Assembly: GCA_029266495.1 (NCBI GenBank)
Contig: JAQSWS010000010.1
Span: 1 to 61,090, forward strand
Length of the DNA stretch: 61,090 nucleotides
From: Rariglobus sp.
GTDB taxonomy: Bacteria > Verrucomicrobiota > Verrucomicrobiia > Opitutales > Opitutaceae
Reading direction: 5' to 3'
Below are positions 4,789-19,779 of this stretch, piece after piece. Made by a program: the position numbers and the translations under genes. Below the pieces are notes generated by a model. It ran no database searches. It saw only the letters and a list, made by a program, of their open reading frames with translations, and was not told the origin of the DNA. The number at the start of each line of letters is the position of its first letter. The stretch's first letter is position 1.

Positions 4789-6027
4789 CTATGCTTTTGC
4801 CGGCACCGCAGGCCGGCGAAGGGCGGCGGTGGCCTCCGGGAACGTGGTGGTTTGCTGTGGCTGCGCCCGATTGTGGGCATGGGCTTCGCCGGCTTCGGCA
4901 ACCATCAGCTTGTAGATGTCGGGAATCGCGGTGATGTCCGCGGGAACCGTGTCACGGTTGGCCATGAGCGCGGCGTAGCTGTGCGGGGCGTCGGGATGAT
5001 AGCCATGCATCGCGCGGATCGGCCGTTCGCCCATGTGACTGGGCACGATCAGGACGCCTTCCGAGACGAGGAAAATGAGTTCGCCGAAGTAACGATCCGG
5101 GAAAAGTGTGCCGAGGTTCTCCAGTTCCTCGTCGGTCATGATTTTTCCCTGTGGCACGTTTTTCAGGTAATCGACGATTTTCTGGCGGGCGTTTTCGTTA
5201 AAGAACCAGAAGCGAGCCATGGTTGAGTCGTAGACGACGGCGTAATCGTTTCCGGGCTTCAGATTGAGCGACAGGATGCGGCTGCGCAGGTCCAGCCGCC
5301 GGTCACAATTGGCCATGCCGTGATCGCTAAAAATGTAGAGGCGCACGTCCGTGTAGTGCCCGCGGGAGATGGCCATAAGGCGGTTCAGATCCTTTTCGTA
5401 GGCACGTAGCTTCAGGAAGATCTCAGGCGACTGGTTGCCGACACGGTGCAGGAGACCGTCGAGGTCGGGCCAGTAGAGGAAGGCGAAGTCGATTTTTTCC
5501 GCGGCGATGTCCTGCAGCAACGCTTCGAGGTTCCCTTGTTCGCCCCGCGCGGGCTCGCTCACATGATAAGGGATCCCGTGCTCGGTGAGGTGGTCGAAGA
5601 TGTTTGTCCCGCAGTTCATGCCGCCGGGCTGAAGCGGACTTTTTTTCTCGGAGAAATCATACTGGTTGATGTCCCGGAACGGCATGTTGTAGAGATCGAA
5701 GTAGCCGCGGAATTTCAGTCTCATCTTTACATACTTGGACAGCCACCGGCGGACGCGCCGCCGGCCGGTGAGCGCAGACGGGAGCCAGCGCAGCCAGCGG
5801 AGCGGGCGAAAAGGGGAGTGCTTGGGATCATGGACGAAGTAACACCAGTTGCGGTGCTCCACGGGCATCCGCCCCGAGAGGATCGACGGAATGCACGCCG
5901 AGCTGTAACCGAAGACGGATCGAAGGCGGCGGCGATAGGGTGCGAGGCCGGTGACGAAAGGATCATCTTTGATGATCTCCCAGCCGCAGGCGTCGACGAA
6001 CACAAACAGGGGAAGGATCGATTTCAT
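4789..6027 (-). CDS. Alkaline phosphatase superfamily (type I phosphodiesterase-like) hydrolase
   Basis: A 412-residue protein starting at ATG 6027, whose start overlaps the stop of the upstream PP2C regulator in an ATGA arrangement; the frame is open further upstream but this start fits coupling. The fold is recognisable from the N-terminal metal-binding strand (PLFVFVDACGWEII), the nucleophile loop FGYSSACIPSILSGRMP, and the second metal site IFSDHGMANCDRRLD. Superfamily members cleave phosphate mono- or diesters or transfer phospho-head groups. There is no signal peptide, so it is probably cytoplasmic. Last gene of the exopolysaccharide operon; it may act on a lipid- or nucleotide-linked intermediate or serve signalling, which is inference. 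Confidence 0.75.
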   Translation of the reverse strand: MKSILPLFVFVDACGWEIIKDDPFVTGLAPYRRRLRSVFGYSSACIPSILSGRMPVEHRNWCYFVHDPKHSPFRPLRWLRWLPSALTGRRRVRRWLSKYVKMRLKFRGYFDLYNMPFRDINQYDFSEKKSPLQPGGMNCGTNIFDHLTEHGIPYHVSEPARGEQGNLEALLQDIAAEKIDFAFLYWPDLDGLLHRVGNQSPEIFLKLRAYEKDLNRLMAISRGHYTDVRLYIFSDHGMANCDRRLDLRSRILSLNLKPGNDYAVVYDSTMARFWFFNENARQKIVDYLKNVPQGKIMTDEELENLGTLFPDRYFGELIFLVSEGVLIVPSHMGERPIRAMHGYHPDAPHSYAALMANRDTVPADITAIPDIYKLMVAEAGEAHAHNRAQPQQTTTFPEATAALRRPAVPAKA

Positions 6028-7925
6028 TTTGTAAGGGGGCTGACGGTTTCGTTGTGCGTGACGGACGGGCTCTCGGTGGAGCTGTGCCAGCCCGCGAGCG
6101 AAGGATGCTGCGGGTGCGCGACACTCGTCGGGCATTTGTCAGCCAGGATGAGAAACGTCTGGTCATCGCGCAGCGGGGTGCCTTCGCGGAAACGATCCAG
6201 CTCCGAGGCGAGTCCTTCGCACAACTGCTCGGCGGCGCACGGGAACCGGACCCGCTCGCGGAGCCATTCGCCGAGGCGGTTTCGACCAAACATCTCGCCT
6301 GCGGGATTGAAGGCCTCCGTGAGTCCGTCGGTATAAATCATCAGGCAGGCGGGGTCGGGGAGGGTGGCACATTCCTGGTCGTAGATCGGATCGGGCTGGA
6401 TTCCCAGGGGCGTGCCCGTGGGGCCGAGCGTGCGGACGGGATTTCCGTCGCCCGAGACCAGCAGGACCGGGCAGTGACCGGCGCTGGCGGCGACAACGTG
6501 CCTCCACTGAAGATCGATGCAGACGAGCTGGATCGTAATGAACATGTCGACCGCGGAGAGCTCCTCGTAAAGCAGGGCATTAAGCCGCATGAGCAGATCG
6601 GCCGGCTGATGGTGGTGCGGGGCCATGGCACGGATGAGCGCGCGTGTGATCGTGGCAAACATCGCGGCGGGCACGCCTTTGCCCATGACATCGGCGACGA
6701 CGAGGAGCAGCGAATGGTCGCCGAGCGGCATGGCGTCGTAAAAGTCACCGGCCACCTGCCGGGCGCTTTCCCAGCGTCCGGCCAGGCTGAAGTTGCCGAG
6801 CTGGGGCAGCGAACGGGGGAACGACGCCTTTTGGATGCTGCGGGCGATTTCCAACTCGCGGGTGATGAGACGGGCGCCGATCTGTTCTTCCTGGTGCCGC
6901 AGGTTGACGATCTGGATCGCAAGAAATTCGGCGAAGGTGCGGATCACCTCGGCCTGCAATTCGGAGAACGGCCCGGCGTTTTCCCGCCGGCCCACCGCAA
7001 GGGTGCCGACGAGGGTTTCGCCAAAGAGGACGGGATGCACGAGGCCTCCCGCCCTGGGGCCGGCGGCGCGCAGGGGCTCGGACGGAAGCCGGGCGTGCCG
7101 GGCCGTATAGGGGACGGCGGTGCGCGTGGCCGCGGCGGCAAGTTCGGCCGAGGCCGGCGACGGGTTGGTGGTTCCGAGCCGCAGGGGTTCACCCATCAGT
7201 TCAGGATCCGAGGCGGCAAAGACCGTGAGTTGCAGATCCCGGGGGGGGATCAGACGCAGGACGAACCAGTCCGTCGAGGTCAGATGGAGCAGATCGCCGA
7301 GCAGGCGCTGGGCGAAACCTTCGAGGTCGCCCGCGCGGCCCAGTTCCGTGCCGCAGCGGAAAATCGCCGCAAGGCTTTCGGAGCGGAAGCAGAGTTCGCG
7401 GGCCATCGCACCGATGGTGCGCTTGAAGTCCTCCAACTGGCGGCGAAGGTCGTCGGGGGACTCCGACGAGGGCTGATTCGACGGGCGATGCAGGTGATGG
7501 GACCGGCGTTTCCACATGACCAGCGTATTGTGGTTTTCACTACGCAGGTAGCGCACGCCGTCCATCATGGAGTGGATGATGAAGATGCCGCGCCCCCGTT
7601 CGCTGTCGGGCGGCGGCACGGACGGGTTCTTGGGGAAGTCGAAGCCCTGGGTGTGGTCCGTCACCCGTAGTTCCACCTGCGAGGAGGTGCAGACGGCCTC
7701 GGCGACGATCGGTTCGTTGCGGAAGCGTTCGTCGGCATACTGGACCGCGTTGTTGCAGGCCTCGGCCAGGCACAGCTCACACGCAAAGAGCTCCGCCTCG
7801 TCGAGGAGATGCTCGGCCAGGAAGGCGCGCAAGGCACGGCTGGCCGCGCGGGATTCCGCCGGGTTGCACCCGAACGCGATCCGATGCGCAGCCCCGCCGT
7901 CGGTGTGAATGGTGGGGGCGTCCAT
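6024..7925 (-). CDS. Fused HATPase (RsbW-like)-GAF-PP2C (SpoIIE) partner-switching regulator
   Basis: A 633-residue protein. Residues about 12-145 are an anti-sigma-type histidine-kinase-like ATPase with N-box ELCLAEACNNAVQYA and a glycine lid ERGRGIFIIHSMMDG. Residues about 180-330 resemble a GAF domain. Residues about 370-600 are a SpoIIE-type PP2C phosphatase, with metal-site stretches AGDFYDAMPLGD, VVADVMGKGVPAAM, YTDGLTEAFN and a final RDDQTFLIL. In partner switching the ATPase phosphorylates a STAS protein and the PP2C removes the phosphate; here both activities sit on one chain, with the STAS protein encoded 7 bases upstream. That pairing makes the STAS protein the likely substrate. 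It is translationally coupled to the downstream hydrolase. Confidence 0.88.
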   Translation of the reverse strand: MDAPTIHTDGGAAHRIAFGCNPAESRAASRALRAFLAEHLLDEAELFACELCLAEACNNAVQYADERFRNEPIVAEAVCTSSQVELRVTDHTQGFDFPKNPSVPPPDSERGRGIFIIHSMMDGVRYLRSENHNTLVMWKRRSHHLHRPSNQPSSESPDDLRRQLEDFKRTIGAMARELCFRSESLAAIFRCGTELGRAGDLEGFAQRLLGDLLHLTSTDWFVLRLIPPRDLQLTVFAASDPELMGEPLRLGTTNPSPASAELAAAATRTAVPYTARHARLPSEPLRAAGPRAGGLVHPVLFGETLVGTLAVGRRENAGPFSELQAEVIRTFAEFLAIQIVNLRHQEEQIGARLITRELEIARSIQKASFPRSLPQLGNFSLAGRWESARQVAGDFYDAMPLGDHSLLLVVADVMGKGVPAAMFATITRALIRAMAPHHHQPADLLMRLNALLYEELSAVDMFITIQLVCIDLQWRHVVAASAGHCPVLLVSGDGNPVRTLGPTGTPLGIQPDPIYDQECATLPDPACLMIYTDGLTEAFNPAGEMFGRNRLGEWLRERVRFPCAAEQLCEGLASELDRFREGTPLRDDQTFLILADKCPTSVAHPQHPSLAGWHSSTESPSVTHNETVSPLTK

Positions 7926-7932
7926 GCAGAGG

Positions 7933-8238
7933 TCAGTCCCTTGTGATTTCGAAGAACTGATGCATCTGGGTCAGTTCGAGCAGTTGTTGAACCTGGGGGG
8001 CGGGATTCAGCAGGCGGAGTTTTACGCCGTTGCCGCTCCCGGTGTTTTTGTAGAGGGAAAAGAGTGCGCCCAGGCCCGAGCTGTCGACGAAGAGCGTTTG
8101 TGAGAGATCGATGTCGAGCGTGTTCATGGAGGGCGGAATCGCCGCCTGAACTTCGTCGCGAAACGATGTCGAATTCACCGCGCTCAGCTCGGGGATGTGG
8201 CTGATGCTCATGCGTTGGCCGTCTTGTTTGATTTTCAT
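7933..8238 (-). CDS. STAS-domain anti-anti-sigma-type protein
   Basis: A 101-residue single STAS domain. The phosphorylatable serine lies in FVDSSGLGALFSLYKN, the usual DSSG position of SpoIIAA/RsbV proteins. It is expected to cycle between phosphorylated and free states under the fused kinase/phosphatase encoded next to it, and to control a partner when unphosphorylated. No sigma-factor gene is present nearby, so the output may be an enzyme of the exopolysaccharide operon or an unlinked sigma factor; this is inference. Separated by 30 bases from the upstream nucleotidyltransferase-like gene. Confidence 0.88.
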   Translation of the reverse strand: MKIKQDGQRMSISHIPELSAVNSTSFRDEVQAAIPPSMNTLDIDLSQTLFVDSSGLGALFSLYKNTGSGNGVKLRLLNPAPQVQQLLELTQMHQFFEITRD

Positions 8239-8268: not shown

Positions 8269-9114
8269 TCATTCCTGCTGGCTGGGGATCAATTCGCGGA
8301 GGGACATAAGCGGGCTTCTGACCCAGCTTCGTGCTCGTGGCGGAGGCTGCCGCACCCCGAGGGAACACAGGAGGAACTCATCCGGCACATCCAGGCAGGA
8401 GCGGTTTTTCCAGTTGATGAGAAGGTTGCCGGAGGCGAGCGATTGATCGATCAGGGTCAGCTCGCCGACAAACGTCTCCGGGCCGACGACGCTTCGCGTG
8501 ATGTGCGCCCCGCATTCGATGAAGGCGCGATCCTCAAGGATTGCACCGGGGCCGATCACTGCGTCGGGACCGACGAACACGTTGTCGCCGATCCAGCAGG
8601 GAGCGTTCAGTTGCGCGGCCGGGGAAATGCGCGAATGCAGGCCGACAAAAATCCCGGGACTGATCTCCCGGCGCCCGATGCGGTCGGGGGTGCATGCCTG
8701 CGGAATCCACGCCTGAAGCGCATGGAACCAGGCTTCGTAGCTGTCAAAAAGTGGAAAACCAGAGAGGCCCGGCAGATGATCCATGAGCACGACGTCATCC
8801 GGGGCCGGTGGTGTGGCGGGGGAGACCGGGTGACCATCGCGATGAGCGCGGATTTCCACGGGATCCGACTCGTTGACCTCGGCAATGACCTCGACGCGCA
8901 TACCCCAACGGGAGCCGTCGCCGACCAGCGCGCGCACTTGTTCCGCCCGGTCGATGGCAATGATCCGCACCTCGTGATCTCCGCGGAGAACGAGGTATTC
9001 CAGCCAGTATTCAACGAGACATTTGCCCAGGATTGGAACGAGGACCAGCGGGCATGCCTTCGCGAGACGGGCGACGGCCGGGCGGTGCGCAGGACAGATC
9101 AGCAGGGTTTTCAT
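8269..9114 (-). CDS. Nucleotidyltransferase-like protein with left-handed beta-helix domain
   Basis: A 281-residue protein starting at ATG 9114, which shares its A with the TAA stop of the sugar transferase (TAATG). The N-terminal half resembles sugar-nucleotide pyrophosphorylases (LVLVPILGKCLVEYWLEYL), but the GGxGTRL nucleotide-binding signature is absent, so catalytic activity is doubtful. Residues about 165-225 show hexapeptide repeats (ISPAAQLNAPCWIGDNVFVG, then PDAVIGPGAILEDRAFIECG) typical of a left-handed beta-helix. It could be a degenerate sugar-1-phosphate nucleotidyltransferase or a structural/regulatory protein of polysaccharide synthesis. Confidence 0.68.
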   Translation of the reverse strand: MKTLLICPAHRPAVARLAKACPLVLVPILGKCLVEYWLEYLVLRGDHEVRIIAIDRAEQVRALVGDGSRWGMRVEVIAEVNESDPVEIRAHRDGHPVSPATPPAPDDVVLMDHLPGLSGFPLFDSYEAWFHALQAWIPQACTPDRIGRREISPGIFVGLHSRISPAAQLNAPCWIGDNVFVGPDAVIGPGAILEDRAFIECGAHITRSVVGPETFVGELTLIDQSLASGNLLINWKNRSCLDVPDEFLLCSLGVRQPPPRARSWVRSPLMSLRELIPSQQE

Positions 9115-9851
9115 TAGTAGGCTCCTGTCCCCCGCATGACGGCGGGAATGGTTTTGCAGAGAATTTTGAGGTCCTCCCACAGGTTGCGGCTTTCGATGTA
9201 GCGAACATCGAGTTGAACCTGTCCGGAGAAATCGATTTCGGCGCGGCCGCTGATCTGCCAGATGCAGGTGATGCCCGGTTTGACGGACAGGCGGCGACGG
9301 TCGGCCAGCGAGTAGCGGGCGACTTCCCGAGGAAGAGGGGGGCGGGGGCCGACCAGCGACATGTCGCCGCGCAGCACGTTGTAAAACTGGGGCAGCTCAT
9401 CGAAGGAGAACTTGCGCAGCCAGCGGCCCACGCGCGTGATTCGCGGGTCGTTTTTGATCTTAAAGGTGACGCCGGTTTCGTGCTGGTTGTTCGCGAGCAC
9501 CTCCTTCAGGCGCGCCTCGGCGTTCGGGTGCATCGAGCGGAACTTGAACATCTGAAACTCACGGCCAAAGCGTCCCACCCGGGTCTGGGGGAAGATCACC
9601 GGACTGCCGTCTTCGAGTTTGATGAGGAGACTGATGAGAAGGAAGAGCGGACCGAGCAGGATGAGCGCGACAAGGCTCAAGACGACGTCGAGTGCGCGCT
9701 TGGCCATGTGGGAGCCGTTGACGACATAGCTCCAGAGCATGCGCTTGAGACGCAGGTAGCATTGCAGCCGCCAGCGGCCGCGCCGGGTTTCGAACGAGGC
9801 GAAGTGTTCCAGCAAACGGGGATCGGGTGAGACGCTAGTTGGAGTATTCAT
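9114..9851 (-). CDS. Polyprenyl-phosphate sugar (phospho)transferase
   Basis: A 245-residue bacterial sugar transferase (WcaJ/PglC C-terminal type) that links the first sugar phosphate to undecaprenyl phosphate at the inner membrane. The membrane helix DVVLSLVALILLGPLFLLIS lies near residue 60 and is followed by FKFRSMHPNAEARL, then SFDELPQFYNVLRGDMSLVG, PRPP and KPGITCIWQISGR, all hallmarks of the family. The large N-terminal membrane domain of WcaJ is missing; instead there is a roughly 50-residue soluble extension. The start at 9851 overlaps the end of the kinase gene by 17 bases. Confidence 0.92.
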   Translation of the reverse strand: MNTPTSVSPDPRLLEHFASFETRRGRWRLQCYLRLKRMLWSYVVNGSHMAKRALDVVLSLVALILLGPLFLLISLLIKLEDGSPVIFPQTRVGRFGREFQMFKFRSMHPNAEARLKEVLANNQHETGVTFKIKNDPRITRVGRWLRKFSFDELPQFYNVLRGDMSLVGPRPPLPREVARYSLADRRRLSVKPGITCIWQISGRAEIDFSGQVQLDVRYIESRNLWEDLKILCKTIPAVMRGTGAY

Positions 9852-10545
9852 CGGATTTCATCAGCAGGAAAAGGTTGGCCAGGAAGGTCTCCTGCACCCA
9901 GCAGGGCGACAGGGAGCCGGCTTCGAGCAGCTGCCAGAGCCGGCTGGCAAGTTGTGCGATATCCTCCTCTTTGAACGGCTGTGTGAGAATCAGGTCGGCC
10001 CATCGTTTTTGCGGTTCCACGTAGCGCTCGTGCAAAGGGGCGAGCATTTGAAACTGGCGTTCGACTGCGTCCGCCGTGCGTCCCCTCTCGGCGACATCCC
10101 GGACGCGGCGGCGGCTCAGCCGGAGGGACGCGGGGCAGTCCAGGTAGATCTTGAGGGCGAAGAGTCCGCGCGTGGATCTGGGCCAGAGCAACCAGAGCCC
10201 CTCCACGAGCACGAGGGGCCTGGGCTGCAACTCATCGCGGACGGGCAACTGGCTGTGGGTGCTGAAGTCATATCGCGGCACCCGGGTGGCCTGGCCCAGG
10301 CGACAGTCGTTCAAGACCTGCTTCGCGCAGCTCCAGTCGATGGCGCGGGGAATGTCGAAGTTCACCCGTGCGCGACGGGCGGGCGCGAGGTGGGAACGAT
10401 CACGATAAAAATCATCGAGCGACAGCCGGCAGGCGTGCTCGCCGAGAAGCTTGCACAGGCGTCCCGCCATCCATCCCTTGCCGGCCCCGGTGCCGCCGAC
10501 AATGGCGATCATCTGACTCGTGGTCGTGGGTGACGTCGTGGTCAT
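9835..10545 (-). CDS. P-loop kinase of the uridine kinase / phosphoribulokinase type
   Basis: A 236-residue protein beginning at ATG 10545 (MTTTSPTTTSQMIAIVGGTG), which overlaps the glycosyltransferase stop in ATGA. Walker A is GGTGAGKG near residue 20, followed by LSLDDFYRD, the substrate-contact motif of uridine kinase-like enzymes, then FDIPRAIDW and VLVEGLWLLW. The family phosphorylates nucleosides or small sugars. Its position inside an exopolysaccharide operon suggests supply of a phosphorylated precursor or a UTP-linked role, which is inference; the substrate cannot be read from sequence. Confidence 0.75.
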   Translation of the reverse strand: MTTTSPTTTSQMIAIVGGTGAGKGWMAGRLCKLLGEHACRLSLDDFYRDRSHLAPARRARVNFDIPRAIDWSCAKQVLNDCRLGQATRVPRYDFSTHSQLPVRDELQPRPLVLVEGLWLLWPRSTRGLFALKIYLDCPASLRLSRRRVRDVAERGRTADAVERQFQMLAPLHERYVEPQKRWADLILTQPFKEEDIAQLASRLWQLLEAGSLSPCWVQETFLANLFLLMKSDEYSN

Positions 10546-11747
10546 GGATGAACCGTTTCGGCAAGGGAGGCGGAGGTCACCCGCGTGAACATCTCCTCCA
10601 GTCCCCGGATATAGTTTTCGAAGTTGAAACGTTGGTCGACCCACTGGCGCCCGCGCGCGCCCATTTCACGGGCGAGGGCCTTGTCCTTCAGGAAAATCTC
10701 CACGCACGCGGCATACCTCGCGCAGTCCATCCACGGCGCGAGGTAGCCGGTGACTCCATCAATCAACCATTCACGGATGCCGCCGGCGTCGAACGCGACC
10801 ACCGGCAGCCCATGGCGCATCGCTTCCAAACCGACCGCGCCAAAGGGTTCGGGCCAGACGGAGCTCATCACGGCCAGGCTCGCGTCGCGATAGAAGCCGG
10901 CGACTTTCTCCTGAGAGACAAAGCCGGCGAATTTTACGCGGTCGGCGAGTCCAAGCGTGCGGCTCAAGCGTTCGCAATAGGCGCGGTGGTTGCCGTCGCC
11001 GAGGATCACGCATTCGAAGGGAACGGTCACCAGGGCGAGTGCTTCGAGGAGGATGTCCACGCCTTTGCCGCGGACAATCTGGCCGGCATAGACGATGCGA
11101 TTGCGAGCGTCGAAGGAGCTTGGCTCCTTTTTATCCGCGACCATTGGCACGGGTGCGTGGGTTTCAATCTGTGCGGGCAGGAAACCGTTCCGAAGCAGTT
11201 CGTCGCGCATGTAGTCGGTCGCCACAATCATGCGTGCGAAGCGGCGGTTGAGTTCAATTTCCCGACGTTTGTCGAGGTAGCCGACCCAGCGGAGCGGAAA
11301 CCGGGAATGCGGATCGCGCGCAAGCGAAGCGCCGCAGGGGAAAATGCAAAATGGAGAGGCCGCGCGCGTGCAAATCTGGCGGCTGAAATAGTGATATTTA
11401 TAGCCGCGCATGCAGTAGAGGTCGTGGTCATGGACCATGCGCGCGACCGGGACACCGCAGGTCGAGAGAGCCTCGATCACGTCGAGGTCGGACATCTTGT
11501 GGACAAAAATGGCTTCCGGTGAAAACGCCTCGATGGCGCTGCGAAGAAGGGCGACCGGATCACTGGAGGTGAATTCGAGGCGTCGTTGAAAGGTGTCGCG
11601 CCACGCCTGCTCGTCCTTGCCGGTGCACGGGCCGTGGACGAGGGAGATGTTATGTCCGCGACGCTGCAGTTCGGTCGCGGTGAGCAACACGTTGACTTCC
11701 GCTCCTGCGAGGGCGCCAAACCGGTCGTGAACGAAAAGCAGTCGCAT
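10542..11747 (-). CDS. Family 4-type glycosyltransferase
   Basis: A 401-residue GT-B enzyme. The N-terminal domain begins MRLLFVHDRFGALAGAEVNV, with the glycine-rich acceptor loop; the C-terminal domain has RIVYAGQIVRGKGVDILLEA and the nucleotide-sugar motif PEPFGAVGLEAMRHGLPVVA (an EX7E arrangement). It transfers a sugar from a nucleotide donor to a growing glycan on the cytoplasmic face. It is the first gene of the minus-strand operon ending at 4789; all following starts are overlapping or closely spaced. The acceptor is unknown. Confidence 0.9.
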   Translation of the reverse strand: MRLLFVHDRFGALAGAEVNVLLTATELQRRGHNISLVHGPCTGKDEQAWRDTFQRRLEFTSSDPVALLRSAIEAFSPEAIFVHKMSDLDVIEALSTCGVPVARMVHDHDLYCMRGYKYHYFSRQICTRAASPFCIFPCGASLARDPHSRFPLRWVGYLDKRREIELNRRFARMIVATDYMRDELLRNGFLPAQIETHAPVPMVADKKEPSSFDARNRIVYAGQIVRGKGVDILLEALALVTVPFECVILGDGNHRAYCERLSRTLGLADRVKFAGFVSQEKVAGFYRDASLAVMSSVWPEPFGAVGLEAMRHGLPVVAFDAGGIREWLIDGVTGYLAPWMDCARYAACVEIFLKDKALAREMGARGRQWVDQRFNFENYIRGLEEMFTRVTSASLAETVHP

Positions 11748-11908: not shown

Positions 11909-14569
11909 TTACCTTCCGGTGACCGGGAAATTGCCGGTGGCGAATACCCGGCGCCCGTCCGGCCACTGCGCCTCGGCTTCCACCCACTGATCGCCGGAGC
12001 TGCGGGGCTTGAAGGTGAATTCGCCGCCGAAAACGGGTTCCTGATCGCGCGTCTCCCAAATGATGTGCGCGGTGTTCGGATCAAGATCCGGATGGCCGGA
12101 CACGTTAAGACGGGCGGTGACGGGTTTGCCCGCGTCGGCTTTGTCCGGCAGGCCGGAGATGGTCGCGGTCGCGGTCTTCCACGACTGTCCGCGCAACGGC
12201 GTCTGTGCCATCAACCAGGCGAGGACGCCGAGCGCGCGCGCCTGGTTCACGATCACAAACTCCGTGGACAGATTAAAGCTGTCCCCCCAGCGATCGTAGA
12301 TCGGATAGGGGGCTTGTTTGTCTCCATCAGGGGGAAAGCACAGCGCGCCGAGTTCCTGCTTGTAGGGATCCAGCCAGCCGAAACCGGCCTGGATGCTGCC
12401 GATGGGAATACCGGACGGTGGCAGGACGTTGTGATCGTTGAGGGCATAGTGGTGGACGATCTCGCGCTGGCGCTGCCAGCCCAGTCCGGTGAGATAGGAC
12501 TGGTTGACCGGATTGGTGCCCGCCTCGTAATTCAGGTTCGTGAGAAGGGCCGCGAAAAAATCCGCGCGCGGGTCCTTCATTTTAGGGTAATCGAGCTGGC
12601 AGGCGGTCGCCAGGTCGAAGCCGCCGTCGAGCGGGAAAAACCAGCCGGCGCCGAGCATGCGTTTGGTGGCTTCGGGGAGGTAAACGCCGTAGGCGCTTTG
12701 CTGGGATGCGCTCAACCAGTCGTCGGCGCACGCGATGATTTCATTTTCGCAACGCGCGAGCAGCAGCGGCTCGACCTGCTTTTCCGTGAGCCGTCCGGAA
12801 CGGACGGAAAACGCATAGCTGCGAATCGCGCGGCCGTTGCTCTCGCAGAGCCGCCACCAACCCCAGCGGCGGGTTTCGGAATCGGAGGGGTCCAGCCAGG
12901 CGCGAACCTCCGTGTGATATTTGGCCTCCCCGGTGGCGGCGAACAGTTCGCACGCGGCCCACACGAGTTCGTCGTTATGCCCGAACTCATCGCCATAATG
13001 GGTGAGCTTTTGGTAGGCGCCGTCCTTGCCGTGGCGCTTGATGGCGACGGCAAGAAAGTCCCAGCCCTTCCGCGCGGCCCGGAGATAACGCGCGGCGTCC
13101 TCCGGAAACTGCCGCTTGAAACGCGGTGACGACGCGCATTGCGCGAGCGCGGCGACGGCGGCGGCGGTCACCGCGGTGTTTTTGGGCCAGACGACCTGCG
13201 GGTCGCCTTTGTCGGGCAGGACGTCGCCCTCGTAACGGCGGTCCTTTGGATAAACCAGGAAGTAAAATCCGCCGTCGTCGTCCTGCATTTTGATGAGAAA
13301 GTCCGCCTCCCATTTCGCCTCCTGCAAGAGATCGCTTTTGCCATCGCCGCTTTCGGGAAGGCCGAGGTTGTCGAGTTCGCCAGCCCCTGGAAACGAATCG
13401 GCGGCAAAGACCAGGTGATGGATCAACCCCGCGCTGTTGATCGTGTATTTGCTGTAATCTCCCGCGTCATGATGGCCGCCGGAGACATCGATTTTTCCCC
13501 GTTTGACGTAAGGGTAGAGACTGGTGTCGATGCTGATCAACGGAGGCGCGGACTGGGCCGGGTTGGCGATGCCTTTGTTGGCGGACTGGAGAAACTCGGC
13601 GGTCGCTTCGAAGCCGAGCGTCGGCACCTCGGCAGGCGCGGTGTGACAACTGCCATGCACGTGGCGGGTGAACGGGAGGCTGTTGTCCGTCCCGCAACGC
13701 TGGTGATACAATCCGAGCGCATAGGTGCGCGCGAAGGCGGCGGGCACGCCTTCGTTGATGAGGAAGCGGTGCGACGCGCCGAGGCCCGGCACGACTAGAT
13801 AGTATTCCCCCGGGGTTTTGAACGTGCTGAAATCGGCGGCGAGCACACGTTGATACCAGGGAAACGGGAAGCCCTGGTCGGCGCGGGGCACGAGTTTTCC
13901 GCGGTGGACGACTTCGTGGGAGCGCGCATCGACAAGTTGGAACCCGGCTTCGACCGGCACCTCCAATTCCCCCATGGTCCCCAGATAGAATCCCACCATG
14001 GCGGTCTTGCGCCACCCCGGGACGTAGCCCGTTTGATTGACGTGAATGGCAGGACTGAAGCGCAACGGATCGGCCTTCACCGTGAGGGGGCTCGAGGTTG
14101 GAAAATGCGGGGAAGGGATCACCACGGTGACGTCCTGGTTTTCCTTCACCGGCTCCGCGAGTTGGAGATAGAGAAAATTACCGGCTCGTAAATCCCGATG
14201 CCGGAGGGGGGCGTAGACCGGACGGCGCTTGAAACCAGTGGCGCTCACGGCGACCGGTTTTCCCGCCACCGTCACCACGGGAAGATTTTTCTCACGACCC
14301 GACTGGATCGCATTAAAAAGTTCCAAGCCGGCTGCCGTAAGAGAGCTGGATGATTCCGGACCTCCGGTGATCCAGGTCACCTCGATCACCCGGGGCGAAA
14401 GCACCCGCACCGCGTGGCCGCCGGGCGCGGGCAGGGCGAGCGACGGGTAATCGGCCGGCGGGGAAGGAGCCGCCACGGGCTTGTTTCCGGTGATCAAAAA
14501 AACAAAGGCGGTCGCGAGCGCGGCAACGGACATCCCGGGCAGGGCGCGATTCGAGAGCATAAAAACCAT
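11909..14569 (-). CDS. Secreted glycoside hydrolase family 9 (endoglucanase/cellulase-like)
   Basis: The frame is open far upstream, but ATG 14569 precedes a signal sequence (MSVAALATAFVFLITGNKPV), giving 886 residues. Residues about 170-280 look like the N-terminal immunoglobulin-like domain of GH9 enzymes (HVNQTGYVPGWRKTAM and FKTPGEYYLVVPG). The catalytic (alpha/alpha)6 domain has GGHHDAGDYSKY with D368 and D371, then YLTGLGWQRQREIVHHYALN and the acid region NLSTEF with E770. A C-terminal beta domain (AGKPVTARLNVSGHPDLDP) completes the protein. The family hydrolyses cellulose or mixed beta-glucans. It sits alone, 165 bases from the divergent stressosome operon. Confidence 0.9.
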   Translation of the reverse strand: MVFMLSNRALPGMSVAALATAFVFLITGNKPVAAPSPPADYPSLALPAPGGHAVRVLSPRVIEVTWITGGPESSSSLTAAGLELFNAIQSGREKNLPVVTVAGKPVAVSATGFKRRPVYAPLRHRDLRAGNFLYLQLAEPVKENQDVTVVIPSPHFPTSSPLTVKADPLRFSPAIHVNQTGYVPGWRKTAMVGFYLGTMGELEVPVEAGFQLVDARSHEVVHRGKLVPRADQGFPFPWYQRVLAADFSTFKTPGEYYLVVPGLGASHRFLINEGVPAAFARTYALGLYHQRCGTDNSLPFTRHVHGSCHTAPAEVPTLGFEATAEFLQSANKGIANPAQSAPPLISIDTSLYPYVKRGKIDVSGGHHDAGDYSKYTINSAGLIHHLVFAADSFPGAGELDNLGLPESGDGKSDLLQEAKWEADFLIKMQDDDGGFYFLVYPKDRRYEGDVLPDKGDPQVVWPKNTAVTAAAVAALAQCASSPRFKRQFPEDAARYLRAARKGWDFLAVAIKRHGKDGAYQKLTHYGDEFGHNDELVWAACELFAATGEAKYHTEVRAWLDPSDSETRRWGWWRLCESNGRAIRSYAFSVRSGRLTEKQVEPLLLARCENEIIACADDWLSASQQSAYGVYLPEATKRMLGAGWFFPLDGGFDLATACQLDYPKMKDPRADFFAALLTNLNYEAGTNPVNQSYLTGLGWQRQREIVHHYALNDHNVLPPSGIPIGSIQAGFGWLDPYKQELGALCFPPDGDKQAPYPIYDRWGDSFNLSTEFVIVNQARALGVLAWLMAQTPLRGQSWKTATATISGLPDKADAGKPVTARLNVSGHPDLDPNTAHIIWETRDQEPVFGGEFTFKPRSSGDQWVEAEAQWPDGRRVFATGNFPVTGR

Positions 14570-14734
14570 TCCGACATTGGACGTCTTTACGGCGGGAGAC
14601 CGTATGGGGTGTGCACCTGCTTGGGCACCGGCAACACACCTATGAAAATCAAAATAAAGAACCCGCCGGGCAGAACCACCATGTCCGGGCTGTGTCTGTG
14701 CGCCCTTCGACCCGCGATCCCACGCTTCCACTCT

Positions 14735-15658
14735 ATGAAAAAGAAGGCCGAACCGAAGATTCACGGCACGCAGCTGCTGTCGAGGCCCATGGCACATTAC
14801 AACGACCCGCTTCTGCGCGAGCTGGTGTCTCATTTGAGGGAACTCCGCACGCAGTTGCGCGAGGAGTGGGCGCGCCGCATCACCAATTCCCAGCTGCTCA
14901 CCGCGATGACCAAGGAGGAAATTTTCTCCGAGGCCACGTCGGTGTATGACAATTATGTCGAGGTGCTCGAGACCGGCAGCGTGGAGGCACTGCAGGCCTA
15001 CGCGCGAAATCTTTCCGAGCGCATCATCCCGCGCGGGGTCGAAACCCACGAGGTCGTTGGCATCGTGCTTTTGTTGCGCGACGTGCTTGCCCGCTCGCTC
15101 TTCAAAAAATACCAGGCGGATTTCGAGTTGTTGAACCGCGTGCTCGATGTCTACGAGCCGGCGGCGAATCGCATCGCGAACACGGTGGCGGTGAGCTTCG
15201 TGCAGGAACGCGAACGCGTCATCCGCCAGCAGCAGGAGGCGATCCGCGAGCTGTCCACCCCGGTGTTGCAGGTGCGCGAACGCCTGCTGATCCTGCCGAT
15301 CATCGGCGTGCTCGACGCGCAGCGCGCGCGCCAGTTGACGGAACAATTGCTGCGAGGCATCCGGGCGAACCGCGCGAAGGTGGTGGTGGTGGATATCACC
15401 GGTGTGCCCACGATCGATCAAACGGTCGCCAATCACCTGGTGAAAACCGTGGAGGCATCCCGCCTGATGGGCGCGAGCGTGATCATCACCGGGCTTTCGG
15501 CCGAGATCGCGCAGACGCTCGTGACGATCGGCGTGGATCTCAGCAAGATGAACGCGGTCGGCGATCTCCAGGGAGGCATCGAAGAGGCCGAGCGTCTTCT
15601 TGGCTACAAAGTCATCATCGCCTCCGAACCGGTTTCCACCTCGGAGCCGTCCTCTTAA
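14735..15658 (+). CDS. RsbR-like stressosome scaffold/sensor (RsbRD type)
   Basis: A 307-residue protein from ATG 14735; in-frame ATGs at 14642 and 14789 are alternatives and none has a strong ribosome site. Residues about 25-165 form an RsbRD-type helical N-terminal domain (ERIIPRGVETHEVVGIVLLL). Residues about 180-290 are a STAS domain close to RsbR, with both threonines equivalent to the known phosphosites: T222 in VVDITGVPTID and T261 in EIAQTLVTIGVDLS. RsbR proteins co-assemble with RsbS into a large cytoplasmic complex that holds RsbT. The stop is 4 bases before the rsbS-like start. Confidence 0.9.
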   Translation: MKKKAEPKIHGTQLLSRPMAHYNDPLLRELVSHLRELRTQLREEWARRITNSQLLTAMTKEEIFSEATSVYDNYVEVLETGSVEALQAYARNLSERIIPRGVETHEVVGIVLLLRDVLARSLFKKYQADFELLNRVLDVYEPAANRIANTVAVSFVQERERVIRQQQEAIRELSTPVLQVRERLLILPIIGVLDAQRARQLTEQLLRGIRANRAKVVVVDITGVPTIDQTVANHLVKTVEASRLMGASVIITGLSAEIAQTLVTIGVDLSKMNAVGDLQGGIEEAERLLGYKVIIASEPVSTSEPSS

Positions 15659-15662
15659 AACC

Positions 15663-16040
15663 ATGCTCCAGGTCCCTATCCTGAAGCAGGGCGGCTATTT
15701 GATCGCCAGCATTCAGTCGGTGCTTTCGGACGCCGACCTGCTGCAGTTGCGCGACAATCTGGCCGAACGCGTCGGGCGGTTCCGTTCACGCGGCGTGATC
15801 ATCGACGTGACCGTGCTGGACGTGATCGATTCGTTCGCGACCCGCATGTTGCGCGCCATCGCGCACATGTTGAAATTGCGCGGCGCGGAGACCGTGATCG
15901 TGGGCATTCAGCCCGACGTGGCTTTTGCGATGGTCCAGCTCGGCCTGACCCTTGAGGGGGTGGGCACCGCCCTGGATTTGGAAGAAGGACTTGCCTACCT
16001 GAACACGAGAACGAAGCAGCTTCCCGGTCATGGAAAATGA
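15663..16040 (+). CDS. rsbS: RsbS-like STAS protein (stressosome core)
   Basis: A 125-residue single STAS domain beginning MLQVPILKQGGYLIASIQSV, a signature start of RsbS. The phosphorylation serine lies in DVIDSFATR at S57, matching S59 of Bacillus subtilis RsbS. The middle part (GAETVIVGIQPDVAFAMVQL) is also RsbS-like. RsbS forms the stressosome core and sequesters the kinase RsbT until phosphorylated by it. It overlaps the rsbT-like gene by 11 bases, pointing to coupled translation and fixed stoichiometry. Confidence 0.93.
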   Translation: MLQVPILKQGGYLIASIQSVLSDADLLQLRDNLAERVGRFRSRGVIIDVTVLDVIDSFATRMLRAIAHMLKLRGAETVIVGIQPDVAFAMVQLGLTLEGVGTALDLEEGLAYLNTRTKQLPGHGK

Positions 16041-16431
16041 AACGCTGACAGAAATCCGCTCCGCCGTGGACATCGTGACCGCCCGCCAGCGGGGGCGGGC
16101 GCTTGCGCTCGACCTGGGGTTCAGCGGAGGCGACGTCACGTTGATTGCCGCGGCCATCTCCGAGGTCGCCCGCAACATCGTTGATCACGCCAAGCAGGGG
16201 CAGATCGTCATGCACCGGATCCATGGCAAGGGCGATCCCGGTATTCAGATTATAGCGACAGATGAAGGCCCCGGGATTTCCGACGTCGCTCAGGCCATGC
16301 AATATGGCTATTCCACCCGCAAGGGGCTCGGAGTGGGCCTGCCCGGCGCCAAGTGGCTGATGGACGAGTTCGACATCATTTCGCACGTGGGCAAGGGCAC
16401 GACGGTGACCATGAAAAAATGGCTGCGTTGA
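16030..16431 (+). CDS. rsbT: RsbT-like serine/threonine kinase (stressosome switch protein)
   Basis: A 133-residue GHKL ATPase. The N-box is ISEVARNIVDHAKQGQI and the ATP lid DEGPGISDVAQAMQYGYSTR followed by KGLGVGLPGAKWLMDEF, nearly motif-for-motif RsbT. In Bacillus, RsbT phosphorylates RsbR and RsbS, leaves the stressosome and activates the RsbU phosphatase by binding its N-terminal domain. No RsbU phosphatase follows here; instead an RsbU-N-like domain heads the histidine kinase at 17074. The stop overlaps the start of the next gene (TGATG). Confidence 0.93.
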   Translation: MENETLTEIRSAVDIVTARQRGRALALDLGFSGGDVTLIAAAISEVARNIVDHAKQGQIVMHRIHGKGDPGIQIIATDEGPGISDVAQAMQYGYSTRKGLGVGLPGAKWLMDEFDIISHVGKGTTVTMKKWLR

Positions 16432-17069
16432 TGAACCCCGTTCCGTCCATTGACCGTCCGCGCCTGGAGTGGGACGTCGCCTGCCGGATATCTCCCGGTG
16501 AAGAAATCTCGGGGGATCTCCATCTGGTGAAGGCATTTCCCGGAGGGGCGCTGGCGGCGGTGGTGGACGGGCTCGGTCACGGAGGCGAGGCGACGCTTGC
16601 CGCTCGGGCCGCGATCGACGTTTTGACCGCGCACACGGACGAACCGGTCATCCGCCTGGTGGAGCGCTGCCATGCCGCCCTGAAACCCACGCGCGGCGCA
16701 GTCATGACGGTTGTGTCGTTCGATTTCGCCTCGAATCACGCGTCGGCGCTCGGAATCGGAAACGTTGAAACCGTCCTGATCCGGGCGAACCGCACGGTCG
16801 TTCCTCTGCGCGAACTTGTCTTGTTGCGAGGAGGAATCGTGGGAGACCAGCTGCCTGCGCTCCACGCGAGCGACTTCGCCGTGGAGCCGGGTGATGTGCT
16901 GGTCTTTGCGACTGACGGAATCCGCGAGGGTTTTTGGGAGCAGCTCAATGTGGTCGATTCGATCCGGCAGCTGGTGAACCGGATCCTTGCGCAACACTTC
17001 CGCGGGAACGACGATGCACTGGTCCTCGCGGTTCGTTATCTCGGTGAATCCGGCGCGAAGGAGGGATGA
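16431..17069 (+). CDS. RsbX-like PP2C phosphatase
   Basis: A 212-residue minimal PP2C/SpoIIE-type phosphatase. Metal-site stretches are GEEISGDLHLV, AVVDGLGHGGEA and VFATDGIREGF, ending with NDDALVLAVRYLG. In Bacillus RsbX dephosphorylates RsbR and RsbS to reset the stressosome; gene order immediately after rsbT supports the same role here. ATG 16431 overlaps the rsbT-like stop; an in-frame ATG at 16419 would add four residues. Downstream, GGAGGG at about 17060 serves the histidine kinase gene. Confidence 0.88.
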   Translation: MNPVPSIDRPRLEWDVACRISPGEEISGDLHLVKAFPGGALAAVVDGLGHGGEATLAARAAIDVLTAHTDEPVIRLVERCHAALKPTRGAVMTVVSFDFASNHASALGIGNVETVLIRANRTVVPLRELVLLRGGIVGDQLPALHASDFAVEPGDVLVFATDGIREGFWEQLNVVDSIRQLVNRILAQHFRGNDDALVLAVRYLGESGAKEG

Positions 17070-17073
17070 TTCC

Positions 17074-19035
17074 ATGGCACGAGCATCGACCAGCATGGAA
17101 TTCAAATACCGAAAGGCACTCCGGGACTACCTGGCGAGCGCGGGCGAGGCGCATTTGCAGCGGGCCTACGAGTTGGGATGCAGGGCGCTCAACGGCGATC
17201 TCGGTATTCTGGACATGTCACGGCTCCATCAGGAGGCGCTTGCCAGTCTTCCTCCCGTTTCGACGGATGGCGACCCCGCGGGGGCGGCGCTGGCCCGCGA
17301 CAAGGCGGTGGAGACTTTTTTCCTCGAGGCGCTTTCGCCATTCGAGGCGGCGCATCGGGGATCCCGTGATGCGTTCAAGCGGTTGAAGCAGCTCAATGAA
17401 ACCTCGGAACGTCGCAACCGCGAGCTTGCGGCGATCAATGCATTGTTGAAGCAGGAGATTGCCGGACGGGAAAAGACCCAGGAGCAGCTCGCCAAGCGGG
17501 AGCGACAGCTGGCCGAGGCGCAACGACTCGCCTGCCTGGGCAGCTTCGAATGGGACCTCGACACGGATACGCTTCACTGGTCGGACGAACTTTACCGCAT
17601 CTACGGGCTCGAGCCTCAGTCGAGAAAGGCATCGCTTGGAAGTTACCTTGTGCGTGTTCACCCGGACGACCGGCTACGTGCACGGCGGAGCATCCAGTCG
17701 GCCGTCCGCAACCGTGAACCGTATTCCCTGGTCGAGCGCATTGTGCGTTCCGACGGGGAGGTCCGCACGCTGCACTCGCGCGGCGAGGTGATTTCCGCCG
17801 GCGACGGCGGCGAGGGCTCGTTGCGCCTGGTCGGATTCTGCCAGGACATCACCGATCGCCGGCAGGCGGAGGAGATGTGGAAGCGTTACGAAACGATCGT
17901 GAATACCGCGCGTGATTTTCTGACGCTGGTGGACCGGCGCTATCGTCACGAGGCGGTCAACGACGCCTACTGCCTCGCGCATGGCATGCCTCGCGAGAAG
18001 ATCATCGGGCGCGCCATCGCCGAGCTCTGGGGCCGGACGCCTTTCTGCGCGATCATGAAGCGCCACCTTGACCAGTGCTTCTCCGGACGGGACGTCCATT
18101 ACCAGTGCTGGTTTGAGTTCGGAGATCTCGGACGCCGCTACTACGACATCAATCATTACCCTTATCTTCACAATGGGGCGGTTACGCATGCGATCGTCGT
18201 GACGCGCGACATCACCGAGCAAAAACAGGCGCAGGATGCCTTGCAGGAAAGCAAGGAGCACTACGTTCAGTTGTTCCGCGAGGCGCAGGAGATGGAGGAG
18301 AACCTGCGCCAGCTTTCCCACAAGGTCGTGACCGCGCAGGAGGAGGAGCGGAAACATATCAGCCGCGAACTCCACGACGAAATCGGGCAGACGCTCACGG
18401 CCGTCAATGTCAGCATTGCGATGCTTCGGAAGGAGGCCGGTGCCGATGGACGATTGAACGCGAAAGTGGACGCCGCGCAGAAGCTGCTCGCGCAAAGCCT
18501 GGAGACCGTTCACCGGTTCGCGCGCGAACTGCGCCCGGAGATGCTCGACCATCTCGGGCCGTATGCCGCGCTGAGATCCTACGTGAAATCCTTCAGCGAG
18601 CGCACGGGCATCAAGGCGGTGCTGCAGCCGAACGTGTCGCTTGATGGCATCGACGGGCAACAGGCGATCGTGTTGTTCCGTGTTGCGCAGGAAAGCCTCA
18701 CGAATGTGTTCAAGCACGCCCGTGCCACGGAAGTGGAGATCCGTTTCCCCCGCATCACCGGAGGCCTTTGCATGGAGATCGCGGACAACGGGCGGTCCTT
18801 TCGCGTCGACGATCAGCTCGCCGGAAAAGGCCGGCGGCGACTCGGTCTGCTCGGAATGCAGGAACGGGTGCGGCTCGTGAACGGCACCTTTTCGATTGAG
18901 TCCACCCGCGGGCGGGGAACCACCGTTCGCGTGCAGATACCCATTCGATCCGGCCAGAAAATCAACGGGGAAAAACGAACGCGGGACCCGATCCCGGCGC
19001 GCGTCCCGACAACCAAGAAAACCAAGCTATTATGA
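17074..19035 (+). CDS. Histidine kinase with RsbU-like N-terminal domain, PAS repeats and HisKA_3 core
   Basis: A 653-residue soluble kinase with no membrane segment. Residues about 8-110 (DYLASAGEAHLQRAYELG, then ALSPFEAAHRGSRDAFKRL) match the four-helix RsbT-binding domain of RsbU. A coiled coil follows at about 110-160. Two PAS domains (about 165-280, with FCQDITDRR at the end, and about 285-395, ending VVTRDITEQKQA) precede a HisKA_3 dimer with phospho-acceptor H434 in SRELHDEIGQ, and an ATPase with N-box ESLTNVFKHA and G-box GLLGMQERVRLVNG. Start 17074 follows GGAGGG by 8 bases. It overlaps the response regulator in ATGA. Probably activated by released RsbT; that is inference. Confidence 0.87.
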   Translation: MARASTSMEFKYRKALRDYLASAGEAHLQRAYELGCRALNGDLGILDMSRLHQEALASLPPVSTDGDPAGAALARDKAVETFFLEALSPFEAAHRGSRDAFKRLKQLNETSERRNRELAAINALLKQEIAGREKTQEQLAKRERQLAEAQRLACLGSFEWDLDTDTLHWSDELYRIYGLEPQSRKASLGSYLVRVHPDDRLRARRSIQSAVRNREPYSLVERIVRSDGEVRTLHSRGEVISAGDGGEGSLRLVGFCQDITDRRQAEEMWKRYETIVNTARDFLTLVDRRYRHEAVNDAYCLAHGMPREKIIGRAIAELWGRTPFCAIMKRHLDQCFSGRDVHYQCWFEFGDLGRRYYDINHYPYLHNGAVTHAIVVTRDITEQKQAQDALQESKEHYVQLFREAQEMEENLRQLSHKVVTAQEEERKHISRELHDEIGQTLTAVNVSIAMLRKEAGADGRLNAKVDAAQKLLAQSLETVHRFARELRPEMLDHLGPYAALRSYVKSFSERTGIKAVLQPNVSLDGIDGQQAIVLFRVAQESLTNVFKHARATEVEIRFPRITGGLCMEIADNGRSFRVDDQLAGKGRRRLGLLGMQERVRLVNGTFSIESTRGRGTTVRVQIPIRSGQKINGEKRTRDPIPARVPTTKKTKLL

Positions 19036-19703
19036 AAAAAATAAACGTGCTCCTTGCGGATGATCACACGGTCGTGCGGCAGGGTCTGCGCTCCCTGCTG
19101 ATGGTGGAAAGCGACATCGAGGTGGTGGGCGAGGCCGACAACGGACGCCAGACGGTGCAACTGGCCCGGCAGTTGAATCCCGACGTGGTGATCATGGACA
19201 TTGCCATGCCGCGCCTCAACGGCCTCGAGGCAACGCGCCAGATCATCAAGGAAGGACTTACGGCCAAGGTGCTGATCCTGTCGTCGTATAGTGACGACGA
19301 GTTTGTCGATCAGCTGACGGAGGCGGGGGCGATTGGCTACCTGATCAAGCAGACGGCGGCCAACGATCTCATCCGGGCGATCCGGGAGGCCTATCTGGGC
19401 AACGCTTTTTTCAGCCCTTCGATCTCGAAGCGGTTGCTGGAGCATTACCGTGAATCCTACATGAAAGGAAAGGCCCCTCAAAAAAGCGCCGCGCCGCTCA
19501 CCTCACGTGAGTTCGAAGTGATCCAGCTGGTGGCGGAGGGAAAGGTGAACAAGCAAATCGCCGCCGAACTCTGTCTCAGCGTGAAAACGGTGGAGAAACA
19601 CCGGCAGCAGGTGATGAACAAGCTGAACATCCACGACGTGGCCGGACTGACCCGTTATGCGATCGCGCGGGGCATCATCGAAAGCACGCCGAAGCTGGTA
19701 TGA
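19032..19703 (+). CDS. NarL/FixJ-type response regulator
   Basis: A 223-residue regulator. The receiver (1-120) has the acidic pair D10/D11, phospho-acceptor D56 in VVIMDIAMPRLNG, and the lysine of YLIKQTA. A LuxR-type helix-turn-helix fills the C-terminus (TSREFEVIQLVAEGKVNKQI, then AAELCLSVKTVEKHR). It is the natural partner of the HisKA_3 kinase whose stop it overlaps by four bases, and the transcriptional output of the stressosome-like operon. Targets are unknown; the nearby GH9 gene and exopolysaccharide operon are candidates by proximity only. Confidence 0.93.
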   Translation: MKKINVLLADDHTVVRQGLRSLLMVESDIEVVGEADNGRQTVQLARQLNPDVVIMDIAMPRLNGLEATRQIIKEGLTAKVLILSSYSDDEFVDQLTEAGAIGYLIKQTAANDLIRAIREAYLGNAFFSPSISKRLLEHYRESYMKGKAPQKSAAPLTSREFEVIQLVAEGKVNKQIAAELCLSVKTVEKHRQQVMNKLNIHDVAGLTRYAIARGIIESTPKLV

Positions 19704-19733
19704 AGACACGCGCGGTTTGAAGCGCGGGGACCA

Positions 19734-19761
19734 CCACGCCGGCTTCGATCTGCCGGCGTGG
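19734..19761. terminator. Hairpin between convergent genes
   Basis: A perfect 10-base inverted repeat (CCACGCCGGC / GCCGGCGTGG) with an 8-base loop lies between the response regulator and the convergent PDC protein gene. There is no T tract, so it may be a weak or factor-assisted bidirectional terminator, or an mRNA 3'-end stabiliser. Confidence 0.55.
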
Positions 19762-19779
19762 CACCTGCGGCCGTTCCAC

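Follow-up and report, generated by a model that had tools for sequence, protein, structure and literature searches.

The 61,090-nt contig JAQSWS010000010.1 of Rariglobus sp. (Verrucomicrobiota, Opitutaceae; GenBank assembly GCA_029266495.1), the whole stretch of which was analysed and is called the window here, belongs to a 4.89 Mb genome and carries, at positions 14735-19703 of the + strand, one tight six-gene operon in which the genes for RsbR-, RsbS-, RsbT- and RsbX-like proteins (RSTX) are followed by those for a histidine kinase and a NarL-type response regulator. What is considered below is how this stressosome might be wired into the two-component system next to it, and which genes the two together might control.

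A stressosome operon with an RsbU_N histidine kinase

The operon is made up of the following features, with the basis of each assignment in brackets.

14735..15658, + strand: RsbR-like co-antagonist, 307 amino acids (aa), with a C-terminal STAS domain, T222 and T261 (Pfam STAS; phmmer)
15663..16040, + strand: RsbS-like STAS antagonist, 125 aa, with S57 (Pfam STAS; residue check)
16030..16431, + strand: RsbT-like switch kinase, 133 aa, with R19 and R23 present (Pfam HATPase; alignments)
16431..17069, + strand: RsbX-like SpoIIE/PP2C phosphatase (Pfam SpoIIE, 43.2 bits)
17074..19035, + strand: histidine kinase, 653 aa, consisting of RsbU_N, a long helix, PAS, PAS, HisKA_3 (H434) and HATPase_c (Pfam)
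17104..17262, + strand: RsbU_N core of the kinase, containing E25, which corresponds to E24 of B. subtilis RsbU (Pfam; alignment; AlphaFold2 model; fold match 1W53)
19032..19703, + strand: NarL/FixJ-type response regulator with D56 (Pfam Response_reg and GerE)

The genes are closely packed, RsbS/RsbT, RsbT/RsbX and kinase/regulator overlapping by 11, 1 and 4 bp, respectively, and the RsbR/RsbS and RsbX/kinase gaps measuring 4 bp each; no terminator was found in a search of positions 19600-19900. Residues 29-293 of RsbR match the RsbR chains of solved stressosomes (phmmer, E 7e-34), and a residue check found the phospho-sites intact in RsbR (T222, T261), RsbS (S57), the kinase (H434) and the regulator (D56), those of RsbR and RsbS being, as we take it, equivalent to the B. 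subtilis phospho-acceptor sites. RsbX has aspartates at 45, 161 and 193 (numbering starting after the start methionine), presumably the residues of its metal-site motifs. Both the RSTX gene order and the two threonine and one serine acceptors are those of a stressosome module, and the kinase and regulator form an orthodox HisKA_3/NarL-FixJ two-component pair (histidine, HATPase, receiver aspartate, GerE helix-turn-helix). The operon is not a SigB partner switch, there being no SigB-type factor, RsbV or RsbW among its genes, nor is the kinase an RsbU phosphatase, as kinase domains and not SpoIIE/PP2C follow its RsbU_N. Beyond RsbU_N, Pfam recognises PAS_3, PAS_4, HisKA_3 (425-489) and HATPase_c in the kinase, in which no transmembrane-like stretch is seen (the strongest 19-residue hydropathy mean is 0.94).

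The six + strand genes lie where an initial annotation, made from the sequence alone, had put them, and T222, T261, S57 and H434 are intact as it had read them. It had also seen neither an RsbU phosphatase nor a sigma-B-type factor, which stands for the latter, a SigB/F/G profile giving 0 matches over its cut-off genome-wide (136.5 against 234.35 bits for the best of four sub-cut-off matches), but has to be narrowed for the former, as the genome holds six SpoIIE-type phosphatase matches, RsbX among them, although RsbU_N is on none of them (genome RsbU_N search).

That the kinase starts with an RsbU-like domain, as likewise proposed in that annotation, was borne out by profile hidden Markov models (HMMs): Pfam RsbU_N (PF08673) matches residues 11-62 at 30.6 bits against a cut-off of 25.5 (E 4e-7; 52 of the 75 model positions), and the window kinase carries the genome's only RsbU_N match. 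When the PDB was searched with residues 1-115 as a single sequence, RsbU was not found; it was found by profiles only, one of which, built from 19 RsbU_N kinases with no RsbU included, finds the RsbU crystals 2J70, 2J6Z, 1W53 and 2J6Y at E 4e-8 to 1e-6 (PDB sequences). The RsbU match of an earlier profile was set aside in favour of this kinase-only profile, because the earlier one contained Bacilli RsbU and its match was therefore not independent. An AlphaFold2 model (51 aligned sequences; mean predicted local distance difference test score of 95.7) has helices at 2-22, 25-40, 45-57 and 68-160, the last of which continues unbroken toward the first PAS domain, in agreement with the linker model of PMC12143880 (cited here and below, like PMC9237108 and PMC10014275, from the part of its text that was available). 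The top PDB match of the model in Foldseek is 1W53, the kinase recruitment domain of the stress phosphatase RsbU (probability 0.99, TM 0.68 by target). By HMM, kinase-only profile and fold, the N-terminus of the kinase is an RsbU_N domain, and the notion that it might not be a real one was rejected, as all three lines agree.

RsbT and RsbU_N among relatives

The contacts of RsbT given in PMC12143880 are E24, Y28, I74, I78 and R91 on RsbU, and R19, R23, N24 and D92 on RsbT itself. Glutamate occupies the position of RsbU E24 in all 75 domains taken from the 73 loci with RsbT (20 from Bacilli and 55 others, the window included), but in only 1 of the 22 that come from 14 loci with no RsbT adjacent, a contrast whose Fisher value (5.5e-18) is not used as a measure of the strength of evidence because the rows are related. 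“Without RsbT” in the second count means no adjacent RsbT: four of the genomes have a weak RsbT-like match elsewhere, G148, the lone exception that keeps the glutamate, being one of them, and G399, also in this set, has a stressosome of its own on another contig. The E24 position is the only invariant column of the 51-row alignment, and the position of I74 is L in the window kinase. On the RsbT side, R19 is present in 53 of 53 RsbU_N-linked sequences and R23 in 50 of 53, both of them also in 22 of 22 from Bacilli.

Relatives in which one part or another is missing make it possible to ask what the glutamate follows. In the larger kinase tree, the kinase of the window belongs to a group of ten verrucomicrobial kinases linked to a stressosome (support 91/87), the sister clade of which comprises 13 RsbU_N kinases without adjacent RsbT (support 100/93) that have lost the glutamate of the E24 position. 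A second, independent loss is seen in G436 (locus L186), whose kinase branches within the clade of the window kinase (100/98, smaller tree), whose genome gives no RsbT match at E 1e-3, and whose RsbU_N is decayed (46.8 bits with a custom HMM, not reported by Pfam), with R replacing the glutamate. RsbT was absent at E 1e-3 from eight genomes, in a search in which no genome gave a match but with a query that gave matches in other searches. In contrast, G469 and Pedosphaera L072 have no adjoining RsbR or RsbS, yet keep RsbT, RsbU_N and the glutamate (the genome of G469 has no RsbS match at all; for L072 the absence of RsbR/RsbS covers the locus only). Because of these losses on the one hand and retentions on the other, the glutamate can be said to follow RsbT rather than the other stressosome parts. 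The kinases of the relatives G122 and G402, which have no RsbU_N, group with the RsbU_N kinase of L072 in the larger tree only (96/79), and this placement suggests that they lost the domain, a point that the smaller tree leaves unsettled. Relatives minus RsbT, RsbR/RsbS or RsbU_N amount to a natural deletion set separating which part depends on which, G436 offering, in addition, a naturally charge-reversed docking residue.

Across 120 genomes of the family, RsbU_N exceeds its cut-off in five, all of which are among the 11 with RsbT (Fisher 2e-6, kinship uncorrected; the tallies stem from two 120-genome samples of equal size and tallies, taken as the same genomes), whereas at a looser E of 1e-3 it is found in nine, four of which (G018, G389, G463 and G465) have no RsbT. 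The conserved co-occurrence that the initial annotation had counted on holds in that every genome with RsbU_N over the cut-off has RsbT, but fails in that G122 and G402 retain RSTX, kinase and regulator with no RsbU_N. The rule that RsbU_N always means RsbT was rejected as well, given the verrucomicrobial clade (13 kinase rows) that has RsbU_N without adjacent RsbT.

Named RsbT loci were taken as the best 80 of 577 relatives, those with the closest RsbT being Verrucomicrobia or Pedosphaera records at 73, 71 and 65 % identity. An RsbU_N protein was found in 68 of the 80 by the custom HMM, the other 12 being left out of the residue count. Pfam scanning of 40 of the RsbU_N proteins from these loci returned 31 histidine kinases, 2 HD, 2 SpoIIE, 1 GGDEF-EAL and 1 PAS-only protein, the remainder being two without an output domain and one off frame (L134, counted as no result). 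Among the 31 kinases, 26 pass the Pfam RsbU_N cut-off, three lie below it (L074, L084, L096) and two are seen by the custom HMM only (L105, L118); the kinase of L125 has a HATPase and no HisKA match. The records of the 31 kinases are labelled as Verrucomicrobia, Acidobacteria, Nitrospirae, Chloroflexi, Bacteroidetes, Proteobacteria, Rokubacteria, Ignavibacteria, Kofleriaceae and Eisenbacteria, which makes this a widespread arrangement and not a peculiarity of this genome.

Some loci hold variants of these parts. At L025-L028 and L030-L033, which come from other families of the phylum and have no adjacent RsbT, a short protein (about 235-320 aa) with RsbU_N and a HisKA_3-like stretch (custom HMM; in accord with Pfam for L031, while L028 gives no Pfam match) is encoded directly upstream of the full RsbU_N-HisKA_3 kinase; it resembles a kinase that lacks the catalytic half, and that of L025 has Q at the phospho-histidine position. 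G399 has an extra open reading frame of 169 aa just upstream of rsbR (L047:9821-10330, - strand; 45 % to RsbR residues 25-131), perhaps a loose sensor domain without STAS, and in L053, L054 and L055, other loci of the family with RsbR, RsbS and RsbT, the next protein is an RsbT-like domain fused to an RsbX-like phosphatase.

The divergent promoter and the polysaccharide cluster

The regulatory operon is divergent from a conserved - strand exopolysaccharide-type cluster, which holds a second partner switch. The divergent cluster and a box in the shared promoter, neither of which figured in the initial annotation, are described by the following features.

14602..14619, + strand: predicted operator of the response regulator, GTATGGGGTGTGCACCTG (motif search; the only match scoring at least 17 in the 61 kb window)
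14570..14734, no strand: divergent intergenic stretch separating the GH9 gene (-) from rsbR (+) (sequence)
11909..14569, - strand: predicted target, GH9 glycoside hydrolase with CelD_N, start codon picked by eye (Pfam; synteny)
10542..11747, - strand: predicted target, GT4 glycosyltransferase (Pfam; ortholog survey)
9835..10644, - strand: predicted target, uridine-kinase/PRK-like protein (Pfam; NCBIfam below cut-off)
9114..9851, - strand: predicted target, bacterial sugar transferase of exopolysaccharide type (Pfam Bac_transf; TIGR03025 at 292.2 bits, just under its cut-off of 295.55)
8269..9180, - strand: predicted target, hexapeptide (LbH) sugar-nucleotide-type protein (Pfam Hexapep; weak NCBIfam)
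7933..8238, - strand: STAS antagonist of the second partner switch (Pfam STAS)
6024..7925, - strand: HATPase-GAF-SpoIIE protein of the second partner switch, HATPase N-terminal (Pfam)
4789..6135, - strand: phosphodiesterase-type protein, end of the cluster (Pfam Phosphodiest; synteny)

A GT4 ortholog (E <= 1e-60) is found in 13 of the 120 family genomes, including all seven with this type of RsbT (Fisher 3e-8, kinship uncorrected). In six of those seven the cluster, whole or in part, adjoins the regulatory operon on one contig, and in the seventh (G470) the contig that carries the cluster stops within rsbR, in which another contig starts. As to the other six, G436 has only the kinase and regulator adjoining, the contig of G446 is too short to tell, and G431, G449, G468 and G412 have the cluster with neither kinase nor regulator. 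The cluster is also present at the named loci L070 (GT4), L072 and L071 (GH9 only). The pair of genes for the second partner switch (6024-8238, - strand) lies within the cluster about 7 kb from the stressosome, and in L187-L190, polysaccharide loci without a two-component system, a STAS gene is found in the divergent position next to GT4, followed in L187, L188 and L189 by a gene for a protein of about 370-390 aa (no Pfam match in L187).

The box comes from an expectation-maximisation motif search of 11 regions upstream of regulatory operons, ten of which are known to be divergent, which returned a palindrome with a log-likelihood ratio of 121.6 against at most 73.5 in six single-base shuffles (kinship uncorrected); a k-mer search of intergenic regions rose barely above its shuffles, the former motif being the clearer. 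The consensus of the box family is about TATGGGGTATNNACCTAC, which is palindromic, and at a match threshold of score >= 17 the box is present in nine of the ten other training loci, 10 of the 11 hits there lying in the upstream region. Among held-out sequences, the sister kinases that have no RsbT next to them contributed 14 loci, seven of which have the box, with 11 hits in all; there are none in four polysaccharide loci without kinase and regulator, none in five other verrucomicrobial RsbT loci and one in 77 RsbT loci of other phyla (956 kb). Set against the four polysaccharide and five verrucomicrobial RsbT loci as nine matched controls, the held-out result amounts to 3e-4 by hits and 0.014 by loci, which is weaker than the 1e-10 of an unmatched comparison that leans on the other phyla. 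The box travels with the kinase-regulator family and not with RsbT or the sugar genes, and is therefore as expected of the regulator's own site; judging by this conservation, the regulator would bind it. No sigma-70-like promoter was found in a search of positions 14500-14800. Recorded positions of the repeated box are L154:1839-1856, L155:1340-1357, L030:1750/4944, L031:6972/7268/11888 and L033:427/5454, the box of G465 (L154) lying some 120 bp before the kinase gene.

Proposed mechanism, alternatives and known systems

The mechanism proposed here has a stressosome, built of an RsbR-RsbS scaffold with RsbT as its switch kinase and RsbX as its reset phosphatase, feeding the two-component system. 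Under stress, RsbT would phosphorylate RsbR and RsbS and depart, as in the Bacillus family; its R19/R23 face would then dock on the dimeric RsbU_N bundle of the kinase around E25, and docking would order the long helix toward PAS/HisKA_3 and increase phosphoryl transfer from H434 to the regulator's D56 (both steps following the model of PMC12143880). The regulator, in turn, would bind the palindrome in the divergent promoter and control its own operon together with the adjacent exopolysaccharide-type cluster. A direct RsbT-kinase link is probably to be expected, and the whole chain from the stressosome through RsbT, kinase activation, regulator and box to the polysaccharide genes, argued from homology, fold, residue conservation, synteny and motif conservation, seems to us slightly better than an even bet. 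A broader and more tentative proposal, which we would put a little short of even, is that of a three-layer exopolysaccharide switch (stressosome and RsbT; an RsbU_N kinase addressed via the RsbT-tied glutamate; a regulator on the shared-promoter palindrome) with a second partner switch in the cluster, the kinase-regulator-box circuit of which also occurs without a stressosome, and to which RsbT, RsbR/RsbS/RsbX and RsbU_N would have been plugged in and unplugged separately.

A number of observations weigh against this chain. The Foldseek match to 1W53 has an E of 0.17, no PDB match reaching 0.001, and the RsbU_N of the window is off-consensus at two places, residue 36 being C where R is near-invariant and RGSR standing where most relatives have RGFR or similar. 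As the other contacts have changed in the window (RsbU Y28 to Q, I78 to S, and the pair of RsbU R91 and RsbT D92 to K-Y), much of the RsbT interface has drifted, and the contrast of 75 of 75 with 1 of 22 at the E24 position rests on about two independent losses and on a 75-domain set gathered with HMMs trained on RsbT-linked kinases. R19 and R23 of RsbT are common without RsbU_N too (19 of 24 each), and were for that reason rejected as a discriminating test. Two PAS domains sit between RsbU_N and HisKA_3; moreover, as G122 and G402, the RsbS proteins of which are 84-85 % identical, keep RSTX, kinase, regulator and cluster with a kinase that has no RsbU_N, this domain is not the sole possible route for RsbT. 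Interaction tests of VvRsbT with VvD1 failed, though VvD1 is without RsbU_N (PMC9237108). As for the box, G469 has none scoring 17, and only about five of the 11 held-out hits flank the kinase operon on its 5' side (L031 twice, L033, L154, L155), three lying just after the regulator gene (L028, L030, L032) and three elsewhere. It is also repeated within several held-out loci and, because of this repetition and the scattered positions of the hits, may be a dispersed element, the other possibility being that the repeats mark a wider regulon.

NarX-type HisKA_3 kinases frequently act as phosphatases of their regulator. RsbT might dock on RsbU_N only to inhibit the kinase or to trigger its phosphatase activity, stress turning the regulator off: no finding fixes the sign of the RsbT effect, the two PAS domains of the kinase could supply the activating signal, and there are related kinase-regulator pairs that have no RsbT, but RsbT by analogy activates RsbU and is reported to control, with an RsbU N-domain, a Moorella diguanylate cyclase (PMC12143880), and a reversed sign is considered unlikely. 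More doubtful still is a mechanism in which RsbU_N merely dimerises while RsbT acts through phosphorylation of the kinase or of some other partner, the route suggested for systems that have no RsbU_N (PMC9237108); it would suit both the RsbU_N kinases of the phylum that have no adjacent RsbT and the RSTX-kinase-regulator arrangement of G122 and G402, but not a contact glutamate retained in every domain from RsbT-bearing loci of many phyla and in a single one of 22 domains elsewhere. That the stressosome acts mainly via the second partner switch of the cluster (STAS and HATPase-GAF-SpoIIE), the two-component system being a separate input, is very improbable, for although both switches share one conserved locus, the SpoIIE protein of the cluster has no RsbU_N, and the stretch of cluster examined in G122, G402 and G469, all of which have RsbT, gave no HATPase-SpoIIE match.

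Activation of the kinase by RsbT through RsbU_N, the mechanism preferred here, had been put forward in the initial annotation as a distinct kind of output, a claim of novelty that has to be given up. In some alpha-, beta- and gammaproteobacteria, Heinz et al. (2022) observed RsbU_N in proteins encoded downstream of RSTX, and two-component systems are among the output architectures that they list (PMC9237108), and Baral et al. (2025) proposed RsbT control of RsbU_N histidine kinases, modelling the NreB kinase of a gammaproteobacterium by AlphaFold2 (PMC12143880). With the gene of an RsbU_N kinase directly after RSTX, the locus belongs to the class described in these papers, and is not new in kind, because its central idea has already been published. 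No title on this type of locus was among the literature matches listed, which were mostly judged by title, so that absence from print is not established.

With the RsbRST-RsbU-RsbVW-SigB pathway of B. subtilis, the system shares the stressosome core, RsbX and RsbU_N as the receiver of RsbT, but here RsbU_N is on a kinase, and the genome has no SigB-type factor over the cut-off. The syp locus of V. fischeri, compared by domain names only and from part of its description, likewise has a STAS protein (SypA) and a kinase/phosphatase-type regulator (SypE) within a polysaccharide locus; we know of no stressosome there. The RSTX-VvD1-VvD2 system of V. vulnificus also has a stressosome followed by a two-component system and no SigB, but in its downstream proteins no RsbU_N was detected, no interaction of RsbT with VvD1 was found, and the output is thought to be cyclic di-GMP (PMC9237108, PMC10014275). 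The modules of Heinz et al. likewise have RSTX directly followed by an RsbU_N signalling protein as the proposed target of RsbT; theirs, however, have a globin-coupled RsbR, and the parts of the paper that were available mention no Verrucomicrobiota, polysaccharide cluster or operator (PMC9237108). The kinases of Baral et al. would work by the same mechanism, RsbT ordering the linker of an RsbU_N dimer, whereas the kinase described here has two PAS domains between RsbU_N and HisKA_3, and natural losses and a residue test are added to what that paper offers (PMC12143880). Together with a predicted output, box and target genes included, these additions give, for Verrucomicrobiota, a specific and testable answer to the question of what Gram-negative stressosomes control, naming a residue for docking, a box on the DNA and the gene cluster that would be targeted.

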